NCBI RefSeq assembly: GCF_023115425.1
Contig: NZ_CP096032.1
Span: forward strand, 1,240,001 to 1,304,000
Length of the DNA stretch: 64,000 nt
DNA from: Synechococcus sp. A10-1-5-1
GTDB lineage: Bacteria; Cyanobacteriota; Cyanobacteriia; PCC-6307; Cyanobiaceae
Direction of reading: 5' to 3'
The translations under genes were made by a program, and so were the position numbers. Shown here in pieces: positions 37,103 through 40,670 of this stretch (positions within the stretch are counted from its first letter, which is position 1; each line of letters starts with the position of its first letter). Below the pieces are notes generated by a model. It searched no databases and was not told where the DNA came from. It worked only from the letters and a program-made list of their open reading frames with translations.

Positions 37103-37825
37103 ATGAAACGCTTTCGGGTTGAGCTGATTGCAGCGACCCCCAACCCCCAGCAGTGCGTCTACGCGGGGATGCACCAGGACTACAGCGAAGGGTTTGTGGC
37201 CGCTGATCGGGGGGAATGGCCTGATGAGACCCGCGCCGGAGAGATCTGCGTCAAACGTCTACTGGCCGGCGAGCGCGGTCACTACGGACCGCTCGAGCAC
37301 GCCCAGATCGTTCTGAATGTCGGCTGGTTCCCCCACTCTGTGATGCAGCAGGCCCGCACCCACAGGGTGGGCGTGAGCTTTGACGTCCAATCGATGCGCT
37401 ACACGGGCGATCGGATCTGCCGTGCCGCCAACGGGGAACTCGAACTGGAAGAGGTCTTCTACCTCCGGCCGGAAGGGCAGTACAGCGATCGACAAGGCAA
37501 GAAGTACACCTACACGGCTGAAGAGCGGCAGAAGGATCTCGCCCTCTGCCAAGTGGCCGCTGAGCGCTACCGCGACATGCTGGCGGCCGGCTTCGCGGAA
37601 GAACACGCCCGCGGAATCTTGCCCTTCGATTACCGCCAGCACTTTGTGGTGAGCTTCTCGCTGCGGGCGTTCCTGCACTTCATGGACCTGCGCGCCAAGC
37701 TCGACGCCCAGGAAGAGATCCGGGTGCTCTGTGACCTGATGTGGCCACACCTCCAGGCCTGGGCCCCAGAGTTTGCGGCTTGGTACGAAAAGAGCCGCCT
37801 ACACAAGGCGCGTTTGGCTCCCTGA
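37103..37825 (+). CDS. thyX: FAD-dependent thymidylate synthase
   Basis: Makes dTMP from dUMP using methylenetetrahydrofolate and FAD. In 240 aa I see GHYGPLEHAQIV, QQARTHRVGVSFDVQSMRYTGDR (the cyanobacterial version of the ThyX motif), and LPFDYRQHFVVSFSLRAFLHFMDLR. thyX is adjacent to dcd in convergent orientation, with 3 bp between stops; Dcd helps provide dUMP. Confidence 0.96.
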   Translation: MKRFRVELIAATPNPQQCVYAGMHQDYSEGFVAADRGEWPDETRAGEICVKRLLAGERGHYGPLEHAQIVLNVGWFPHSVMQQARTHRVGVSFDVQSMRYTGDRICRAANGELELEEVFYLRPEGQYSDRQGKKYTYTAEERQKDLALCQVAAERYRDMLAAGFAEEHARGILPFDYRQHFVVSFSLRAFLHFMDLRAKLDAQEEIRVLCDLMWPHLQAWAPEFAAWYEKSRLHKARLAP

Positions 37826-37828
37826 GCC

Positions 37829-38422
37829 TCAGATTCGCGCCAGGGTGACCCGCTCGGGCTGGTGCTGGTACTTCCCGGCCCGGTCCTTGTAGGTCGTCTC
37901 GCAGGGGTCTCCTTCAAAAAAGAGCAGCTGGCAGATGCCCTCATTGGCATAAATCCGGCAGTCCGCACCGGAGGAGTTGCTGAACTCCAAGGTCAGGTGA
38001 CCTTCCCAGCTGGCCTCAGCTGGAGTGGTGTTGACGATGATTCCCAGGCGGGCATAGGTGCTCTTGCCCAGGCAGATCACGGTGATGTTGGGTGGCACAC
38101 GCATCTTCTCGAGCGCCACACCCAACCCATAGGAATGGGCCGGGAGGATGAAGTACGAGCCGTCTTCGTCCTCGTGCAAAGGCACGGGCTCCAAGTTGGC
38201 TGGATTGAAGCGCTTGGGGTTCATGATCGTGCCAGGCACGTGCCGGAAGATCAGGAACTCCTGGGGGGACAGGCGCAGGTCGTAGCCATAGGACGAGCAG
38301 CCAAAGCTCAGAACCGGCTTTTCACTGTTCTCAGGATCGAGATGACGAACCAGCTGCGGCTGAAACGGCTCGAGCATGCCCGCAGCGGCCTGCTCATTGA
38401 TCCAACGGTCGTTTTTGAGCAT
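37829..38422 (-). CDS. dcd: dCTP deaminase
   Basis: Converts dCTP to dUTP. 197 aa with CSSYGYDLRLSP, LGKSTYARLGIIVNTTPAEASWEGHLTLEFSN (active-site Glu in the latter part) and an ending rich in GKYQHQ. It overlaps the upstream CobO-like gene by one base (TAATG), so the two should be co-translated. Confidence 0.95.
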   Translation of the reverse strand: MLKNDRWINEQAAAGMLEPFQPQLVRHLDPENSEKPVLSFGCSSYGYDLRLSPQEFLIFRHVPGTIMNPKRFNPANLEPVPLHEDEDGSYFILPAHSYGLGVALEKMRVPPNITVICLGKSTYARLGIIVNTTPAEASWEGHLTLEFSNSSGADCRIYANEGICQLLFFEGDPCETTYKDRAGKYQHQPERVTLARI

Positions 38423-39021
38423 TAGAAACCTCGGCGCAGCTGGGTGACCTGATCAGCCATGGCCAACAAAGCCGTGGGCATGGACGGCCCAGTCAGGATC
38501 ACATCCAGGTGAGAGGGCCGCTGCTCCAGAGCAGAGACCACTTCCACCTCAGTCAGATAGCCCAACTCCACCGCCAGACCGAGCTCATCAAGCACGAGCT
38601 GATCGAGCTGACCACCCAGGAACTGCTCCCGGGTGTACTCCCAGATCTCCCTCACGGCCTCCACATCCGCCTGCGACGCAGGCGTGGGCTCCGCCAAGCA
38701 ACCCGCCACCGCTGGCCTGAGCCACTGCAGACGGCCACAGAGCCAGACGCTGCGCTCGAGGCCTTGATCGACGCCACCTTTGAGAAACTGGCTGACCAGG
38801 ACACGGCTGCCCAGTCCTGCACTGCGCAAGGCCTGACTGAACACCCCGCTGAAGCTGCCGCGGAACGGCGCTGTGTGCACCTGGAGTTGCCCCTCCTGCT
38901 GGGCCGCCAGACGAACGCTGCGGGAAGGAGCAGACGCTGGAATCGAGGCCAGCGGGCGCAGGTGTCCAGCACGGGGCGTAGCGCTGGGAGTGGCTGCAAG
39001 GCTGGCCGTCATCGATTGCAT
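38422..39021 (-). CDS. CobO-like P-loop fold protein with a degenerate nucleotide motif
   Basis: About 199 aa. LRSAGLGSRVLVSQFLKGG, WEYTREQFLGGQLDQLVLDELGLAVELGYL, LEQRPSHLDVILTGPSMP and VTQLRRGF align by eye with cob(I)yrinic acid a,c-diamide adenosyltransferase (CobO/CobA). The Walker A region, normally G-x-G-K-T, reads HTAPFRGSFSGVFSQAL without the Lys-Thr pair, so ATP use is doubtful. ATG 39012 is another possible start; the frame is open to 39144. A palindrome lies in the divergent upstream region. Confidence 0.75.
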   Translation of the reverse strand: MQSMTASLAATPSATPRAGHLRPLASIPASAPSRSVRLAAQQEGQLQVHTAPFRGSFSGVFSQALRSAGLGSRVLVSQFLKGGVDQGLERSVWLCGRLQWLRPAVAGCLAEPTPASQADVEAVREIWEYTREQFLGGQLDQLVLDELGLAVELGYLTEVEVVSALEQRPSHLDVILTGPSMPTALLAMADQVTQLRRGF

Positions 39022-39129: not shown

Positions 39130-39864
39130 ATGAGCAGCACCCAACCTCGGCGGGACGGCCGCGGCGCCATGGATCTGCGCAGCACTCGCTTCGACTGGGA
39201 TCCGATGGGGTTTGCCCTGAGCTCAGTCACGGTTCACACGGGTCGAACCGCCGTGATCTGCAGCGTTTGCCTCGAGGAAGGCGTCCCGAAATGGCGAAAA
39301 GGCTCAGGCAAAGGCTGGCTAAGTGCCGACTACAGACTGCTGCCGGCCAGCACCCCCAGCCGCCAGCCAAGGGAGCTGATGAAGCTGAGCGGCCGCACCC
39401 AGGAAATTCAACGCCTGATTGGCCGCAGCCTCAGGGCCTGCCTCGATCTCGAGGCTCTGGGCGAGAGGACGCTGCAGGTCGATTGCGACGTTCTGCAGGC
39501 AGACGCCGGGACCCGCACGGCCTCCATTACTGGAGCCTGGGCCGCCTTGGCCCTGGGACTGCGCCGGCTCGAGCAGCGGGGGGTACTGGAGCGCTCTCCC
39601 CTAATCGGCCAGGTGGCAGCGGTCTCGGTTGGCCTGGTCGATGGGAACGCGCTACTGGATCTGGACTACAGCGAAGACAGCCGAGCCGAGGTGGATTTGA
39701 ACGTGGTGATGAATCAAGAGCAGCATTTGCTCGAAATTCAGGGCACCGCAGAGGGCGCACCCTTCAGTCGCCAACAGCTTTCTACCCTGGTTGACCTGGC
39801 CGAAGCTGGAATCCAGCGCCTTCTGAGCGCTCAGAGCCAGGCCTTGGCAGAAGCCCCGAATTAG
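39130..39864 (+). CDS. rph: Ribonuclease PH
   Basis: Phosphorolytic exoribonuclease that trims tRNA 3' ends. 244 aa with [15 protein letters not shown] near the start, [34 protein letters not shown], a [19 protein letters not shown] segment and [18 protein letters not shown]. All are standard RNase PH motifs. Divergent from the CobO-like gene; ntcA follows after 65 bp. Confidence 0.96.
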
Positions 39865-39929: not shown

Positions 39930-40670
39930 ATGGTTGTGGCCACGCAAGGATTCAGCCGCTACTCCCCTAGCCCCACTACCGGTACGTCCGTGATCGCACC
40001 GATCGCGGGCAGTCCGCTACCGCCTAATGCAACGCTCCTGGATGTGATCCGGGGCCTCAGCGGCAGCACGACGGAAATCGTCGAGCGCGGCAAAACGATC
40101 TTTTTCCCTGGGGATCCAGCCGAGAAGGTCTACCTCCTCAAACGCGGAGCAGTCCGCCTCTCCCGCGTGTACGAATCGGGCGAGGAGATCACGGTGGCGC
40201 TCCTGAGGGAAAACAGCCTGTTCGGGGTGCTCTCCCTGCTGACCGGCCAGCGCTCGGATCGCTTCTATCACTCCATTGCTTTCACCCGCGTCGAGCTGGT
40301 GACAGCCCCCGCCACCTCGGTGCGGAAGGCCATTGAGCAAGACCCCGCGGTGGGCCTGCTGCTGCTGCAGGGCCTGTCCTCTCGGATCCTGCAAACCGAG
40401 ACCATGATCGAAACCCTCACCCACCGCGACATGTCCTCGCGACTGGTGAGTTTCCTGCTGGTGCTCTGCCGCGACTTTGGGGTTCCCAGCAGCGAAGGCA
40501 TCACGATCGACCTGCGTCTCTCCCACCAGGCCATCGCCGAAGCGATTGGATCCACCCGGGTCACCATCACACGCCTGCTGGGTGACTTACGCAACGACGG
40601 TCTGGTGCAAATCGATCGCAAGAAAATCACCGTTTTCGATCCCTTGGCCCTCGCCAAACGCTTCAGCTAA
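39930..40670 (+). CDS. ntcA: Global nitrogen regulator NtcA
   Basis: CRP-family transcription factor that senses 2-oxoglutarate and binds GTA-N8-TAC sites. 246 aa: a ~40-residue variable N-terminus, the cNMP-binding-like domain ([31 protein letters not shown]), dimer helix, and the helix-turn-helix [25 protein letters not shown] near the C-terminus, the typical NtcA sequence. I found no clean NtcA site in the 65-bp upstream space, so autoregulation is not visible here. Confidence 0.95.

Follow-up and report, generated by a model that had tools for sequence, protein, structure and literature searches.

A clade of CobO-like proteins that lack the P-loop tracks the class II, adenosylcobalamin-dependent ribonucleotide reductase across cyanobacterial genomes, an association that is new here and that we consider well supported. 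One member of this clade is encoded in the window, that is, the whole stretch of 64,000 nucleotides from Synechococcus sp. A10-1-5-1 that was analyzed, and we put at roughly 0.5 the probability that this gene specifies a non-catalytic paralogue of CobO that serves the adenosylcobalamin supply of the class II reductase. The earlier note on this DNA had described a CobO-like protein with a degenerate P-loop; the present analysis reaches beyond it in that the loss spans the whole clade and in that a third paralogue, a tandem CobO, has a similar phylogenetic profile.

Loss of the ATP site in a clade of CobO-like proteins

The gene in question occupies positions 38422..39021 on the minus strand (open reading frame 39021..38422, with an ATG start and a TAA stop) and encodes a protein of 199 amino acids that belongs to the PRK07414 clade. 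Its identity as a CobO-like protein, claimed in the earlier note, is borne out by a match to the Pfam family PF02572 (CobA_CobO_BtuR; 5.2e-26, 92.3 bits, above the cut-off of 25.7), and so is the reported replacement of the GKT of Walker A, in the place of which the protein contains TAPFRGSF. Among the NCBIfam models, NF005648/PRK07414 ('P-loop NTPase family protein') fits best, with 180 bits, below its cut-off of 248; the window protein shares a clade with the members that exceed this cut-off but carries RGSF where those carry R(S/N)FF. The name of the model is misleading because none of the 146 aligned members of the clade has a P-loop at that place. Six of the many PRK07414 matches outside the class were fetched (five from family f43 and one from f51), and the GxGKGKT P-loop is present in all six, which therefore are ordinary CobO proteins.

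By sequence, the nearest solved chains are those of Salmonella CobA (PDB 1g64, 4hut), with which the window protein shares the fold, the Walker B DE, the QF(I/L)KG motif and about 30% identity, whereas the P-loop, Phe91, Trp93 and Arg161 of CobA are gone. An AlphaFold2 model built from 61 sequences of the window family (mean pLDDT 79.4 and pTM 0.72, with about 50 for the N-terminal 40 residues and 65 for the block 51-60) superimposes with CobA at a Z-score of 19.3 over 149 residues with an rmsd of 2.4; thymidine kinases and RecA come next as fold neighbours, with Z of about 11-12. Comparison with five relatives indicates that the gene evolves under purifying selection (dN/dS 0.038-0.151 at dS 0.75-0.89).

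The equivalent of CobA residues 35-43, TGNGKGKTT, is TAPFRGSFS (residues 50-58; 38848..38874, minus strand), so that the Walker A sequence GNGKGKTT (residues 36-43) has become APFRGSFS and Ser56 occupies the place of the catalytic Lys41. Gly107 and Leu109 are found in the places of Phe91 and Trp93, and the TGR motif of CobO reads TGP (residues 177-179; 38485..38493, minus strand), with the loss of Arg161. The motifs QFLKGG (residues 78-83; 38773..38790, minus strand) and the Walker B VLDE (residues 143-146; 38584..38595, minus strand), which includes D145 and E146, are kept. In CobA, Phe91 and Trp93 serve to displace the lower ligand.

The state of the P-loop was scored across 146 aligned rows of the clade, a subset of the profiled genomes that comprises all fetched rows (81 from picocyanobacteria and 65 from other families; 141 distinct sequences, five genomes having entered twice), along with 21 canonical CobO proteins from cyanobacterial genomes, 17 tandem CobO proteins and CobA. 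None of the 146 clade rows retains any of Lys41, Thr42, Phe91, Trp93 and Arg161 of CobA. The place of Lys41 is taken by Ser in 81 rows, Phe in 63, and Met and Leu in one each; that of Arg161 by Pro in 125, Ser in 12, Thr in seven, and Gln and Ala in one each; and that of Lys39 by an invariant Arg (Arg54; 146/146). Picocyanobacteria typically have TA(P/S/A)(F/Y)RGS(F/V/Y) as the replacement motif, and the other cyanobacteria T(S/A/C)x(H/Q)R(S/N)FF. Other residues of the old active site have been retained almost without exception, namely, Gln63 (146 rows), Lys66 (144), Gly67 (145), Asp127 (145) and Glu128 (146). Lys41, Phe91, Trp93 and Arg161 are present in all 21 canonical CobO rows, and both halves of all 17 tandem CobO rows contain Lys41 and Arg161 but neither Phe91 nor Trp93. 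Given that all 146 rows are devoid of Lys41, the loss of the P-loop is a property of the whole clade rather than a product of chance or local decay. A quick tree, which carries a long-branch warning, was built from 74 of the rows: 39 from the clade, 14 of the 21 CobO, 10 of 17 for each tandem half, and CobA. In this tree, a single branch with an SH-aLRT value of 99 sets all 39 clade rows apart.

Two apparent irregularities were discarded. The open frame of the clade row L078 contains a Walker-A-like string, which lies 116 residues upstream of the relevant place and probably precedes the start of the gene, and a suspected fusion with a second domain, a long frame in one genome of family f10 (G045), resembles a low-complexity tail.

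With Lys41, Thr42 and Arg161 lost, the grip on the phosphates would be gone, which makes CobO-type catalysis very unlikely; on the strength of these residues, the window protein very probably performs no ATP-dependent reaction of the CobO type. What is left of the pocket is conserved, which suggests that a ligand may still be bound.

Co-occurrence with the class II reductase

The source genome (99.98% complete, one contig) encodes, apart from the window gene, a canonical CobO with an intact P-loop (C1:67338), which is the second cobO that the earlier note had proposed to look for, and a tandem CobO (C1:1142616-1143722) in which the P-loops are likewise intact. The B12-dependent reductase on the same list of checks is there as well, in the form of a single class II, adenosylcobalamin-dependent RTPR (C1:530343; 927 bits) about 0.75 Mb from the CobO-like gene; no match to NrdB was detected in this genome. 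The tandem CobO frame, viewed at L185:6614-7813 (C1:1142613-1143812 of the source genome), has two intact P-loops and no Phe91 or Trp93. In a genome of the same genus with 68% completeness (G023), only CobO was found.

Phylogenetic profiles were compiled for two sets of genomes. Among the 165 genomes of the class Cyanobacteriia in the first set, 154 have the CobO-like gene (best PRK07414 E-value below 1e-36) and 11 lack it (best E-value above 1e-21); RTPR (E <1e-50) was detected in 148 genomes, in 145 of these above the curated cut-off, and its distribution is 142/154 with the gene and 6/11 without. The second set consists of 73 genomes, namely, all 42 class members that lacked the gene in another survey and 31 that have it, and RTPR is present in four and 31 of these, respectively. 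Six genomes are common to both sets, so the combined total is 185 with the gene and 47 without; 19 picocyanobacterial genomes with the gene were left out of the reductase counts. The gene was found in all 36 picocyanobacterial genomes of the survey, those of 1.6 Mb included. The Synechococcus elongatus genome, included as a control, matches both PRK07414 and RTPR; in either search, one control exceeds the cut-off.

A strict tie to RTPR alone was rejected, given that 12 of the 154 gene-bearing genomes lack this enzyme. Eleven of the 12 encode the B12-dependent NrdJ_Z (TIGR02504), which exceeds the cut-off in 10 of the 11, in six of these only when the pieces of a split frame are summed; among those checked as whole proteins, three are over the cut-off and one (G048) is just under it, with 394.7 versus 399.95 bits. 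The G048 protein (L277:314-5116) is an open frame of 1601 amino acids that contains intein-like inserts. When both of these families, which are unlike each other, are counted, a class II reductase (RTPR or NrdJ_Z) is present in 184 of the 185 genomes with the CobO-like gene versus 9 of the 47 without it; the link to B12-dependent ribonucleotide reductase that the earlier note had raised as a possibility is thus backed by phylogenetic profiles. NrdB, a subunit of the class I reductase, the iron-type enzyme that needs no B12, was sought in 80 chosen genomes; it was found in 38 of the 46 that lack the gene and in none of the 34 that have it. In both NrdB genomes in which it was checked (G258 and G248), the NrdJ_Z match below the cut-off is NrdA.

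These 80 genomes, chosen as informative, were placed on an rpoB tree made by a quick method, on which the CobO-like gene requires 11 changes, the presence of a class II reductase seven and NrdB six. Nine independent pairs differ in the gene; the class II reductase differs in the same direction in 4.3 of them on average, in the opposite direction in 0.1 and not at all in 4.6, so about half of the losses of the gene occurred without a change of reductase class. Five independent pairs differ in NrdB, with the gene differing in the opposite direction in 4.2 on average and in the same direction in none (sign test, median p 0.125, five pairs being too few to reach 0.05). Pagel's test of dependent versus independent evolution gives a likelihood ratio of 32.6 (p 1.4e-6, 4 degrees of freedom), which we treat as support rather than proof because some rates are at their bounds and the genomes were chosen as informative. 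The gene-bearing genomes with NrdJ_Z occupy two or three regions of the rpoB tree, and this scatter suggests a tie to the shared coenzyme, not to one particular reductase protein.

The association is not strict. A class II reductase alone, in the absence of the CobO-like gene, is found in seven genomes (G108, G172, G329, G346, the latter 87% complete, G367, G384 and G392), and the gene therefore is accessory, not essential. RTPR is also present without the gene in G363, which is 68% complete and outside the set tested for NrdB. One gene-bearing genome, G338 (8% contamination, 800 contigs), has no reductase of any tested kind. In G105 (rpoB L208; 99% complete), which lacks the CobO-like gene, there was no match to RTPR, NrdJ_Z or NrdB; its close sister of the same genus, G278 (rpoB branches of 0.002 and 0.0065), has both RTPR and the gene, and an unrecognized reductase or an assembly gap in G105 is possible. 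The genome G248 (L280, L281) combines RTPR with NrdAB, lacks the CobO-like gene and has the tandem CobO only as a fragment; it is perhaps an intermediate caught in the middle of a switch between the reductase classes.

The tandem CobO (NF005647/PRK07413) tracks the class II reductase across genomes in a pattern similar to that of the P-loop-less gene, from which it differs in having two domains, each with a GxGKGKS P-loop (17/17). Of the 31 genomes with the CobO-like gene in the 73-genome set, 30 have the tandem CobO, 29 over the cut-off; it is in two pieces in G125 and missing from G139. It exceeds the cut-off in G105, G108, G172 and G329, all without the CobO-like gene. No NrdB genome (0/38) has it at that level, and fragments occur in G248 and G222.

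A tandem CobO with two P-loops is encoded also by the cyanophage PSS2 (NC_013021; L269:2803-3837; 50.5% identity over 93%; 395 bits versus the family cut-off of 426), and elsewhere in the phage genome there is an RTPR with 56% identity; perhaps, the pair is useful in infection. The PSS2 authors count cobO and RNR as host-like genes and consider the role of cobO, together with those of five other genes, unclear (PMC2784084). An RTPR-like match is present in 32 phage records, of which only three also match the tandem CobO, and all three are PSS2, so this is a single case. Five phage records match the window protein itself, at 23-30% identity, three of them through the PSS2 tandem CobO, and among the viral contigs, 76 stretches fit a clade pattern but none encodes a relative.

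Association with dcd

Immediately downstream of the CobO-like gene, on the same strand, lies dcd, the gene for dCTP deaminase (37829..38422, minus strand; TIGR02274, 110.5 bits, cut-off 92.8), the ATG of which overlaps the TAA of the CobO-like gene by one base, an arrangement that suggests translational coupling. The gene for the FAD-dependent thymidylate synthase, thyX (37103..37825, plus strand), converges on dcd, and rph (ribonuclease PH; 39130..39864) and ntcA (the global nitrogen regulator; 39930..40670), both on the plus strand, are divergent from the CobO-like gene.

The neighbours were surveyed by tblastn, which replaced a clustering based on greedy ORF calling that had picked many antisense ORFs. 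Counting dcd when on the same strand, downstream and within 500 nt, at a limit of 40 bits, we found it next to the CobO-like gene at 82 of 83 picocyanobacterial loci and, in other cyanobacteria, at 18 of 35, so the conservation of the pair, the examination of which had been recommended in the earlier note, is confirmed; the 83rd picocyanobacterial locus has a dcd match below the limit. A divergent ntcA accompanies the gene at 82/83 picocyanobacterial and 1/35 other loci, and a divergent rph at 40/83 and 13/35; the commonest further neighbours in the other families, from the neighbour clustering, occur at six loci each. The stop and start codons overlap or abut at 50 of the 83 picocyanobacterial loci (35 with an overlap of 1 nt) and at none of the 18 others, where the gaps are 6-266 nt, all spacings being dependent on mechanically chosen starts.

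This conserved adjacency is an argument for a different, rather unlikely, interpretation, under which the protein acts together with dCTP deaminase or senses this enzyme or the dNTP level and the B12 link is indirect, via a dNTP metabolism of the class II type. The thymidine kinases among the next fold neighbours also could be cited in its favour, although they may reflect only the shared P-loop fold. However, 17 of the 35 loci of the other families gave no dcd match within the sequence retrieved (mostly about 12 kb), and dcd itself exceeds its cut-off in 20 of the 42 genomes that lack the CobO-like gene and in 17 of the 31 that have it. Since the presence of dcd thus shows no difference with the gene, the profile of the gene, which tracks the reductase type, is not that of its operon partner. 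We suspect that the gene pairs with dcd because both would act in deoxynucleotide supply.

A putative role in adenosylcobalamin supply

A functional link between the window gene and the class II reductase is likely, and the P-loop-less protein probably assists the B12-dependent synthesis of DNA precursors. The intact tandem CobO and the P-loop-less protein are gone from all 38 NrdB genomes, and at least one CobO-like match, intact or not, is present in 33 of these and none in five. Accordingly, both proteins most likely act where adenosylcobalamin is used and not in the biosynthesis of cobamides. The opposite possibility, that the P-loop-less protein assists the canonical CobO, as its partner, in making cobamides and has no relation to the reductase, could appeal to the shared fold, to the fact that CobA is a dimer and to the five NrdB genomes that lack any CobO-like match, in some of which the entire pathway to cobamides may have disappeared; we find it improbable given that biosynthesis seems to be independent of the gene in the 33 genomes that keep a CobO-like match. 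Still less credible is a retained adenosyltransferase activity by another route of ATP binding, with Arg54 substituting for the P-loop lysine: the Walker B Asp-Glu, Gln63 and Lys66 are kept in 144-146 of the 146 rows and Arg54 is invariant, but Lys41, Thr42, Phe91, Trp93 and Arg161 are gone in every row and the same genome encodes two CobO paralogues with intact P-loops.

The preferred reading, a non-catalytic CobO paralogue in the service of the class II reductase, can be developed into a tentative scheme. The P-loop-less protein would keep a pocket for a cobamide or a nucleotide and would hand adenosylcobalamin to the class II reductase, as a carrier or as a partner of the tandem CobO. That its part is specifically that of a carrier, or of a regulatory partner of the tandem CobO, is a conjecture to which we give somewhat less than even odds, and the same guarded assessment applies to the larger picture of a dedicated adenosylcobalamin line for the class II reductase, consisting of the tandem CobO and of the P-loop-less CobO as carrier or gate of the coenzyme. 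In this picture, lineages changing over to a class I reductase would discard both parts of this supply and, in most cases, retain the biosynthetic CobO.

Dedicated supply of a single adenosylcobalamin enzyme is not without parallels. The adenosyltransferases MMAB/ATR, EutT and PduO are catalytically active and hand adenosylcobalamin to client enzymes, which is the role proposed here; however, their folds are unrelated to that of the CobO-like protein, from which they differ also in being active enzymes. In the titles and the beginnings of abstracts of the open-licence PubMed Central literature, nothing was found on a P-loop-less CobO protein; the name PRK07414 is absent from that literature, and nothing was found there on the supply of adenosylcobalamin to the class II reductase in cyanobacteria.

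Annotation of the P-loop-less gene as cobO or as a P-loop NTPase is misleading. In Prochlorococcus and Synechococcus, DNA synthesis draws on the B12-dependent ribonucleotide reductase, which thereby contributes to the cobalt and B12 requirements of these organisms. A conserved pseudo-enzyme, kept even in genomes of 1.6 Mb, and the tandem CobO are two candidate genes for the supply of the coenzyme of this reductase.
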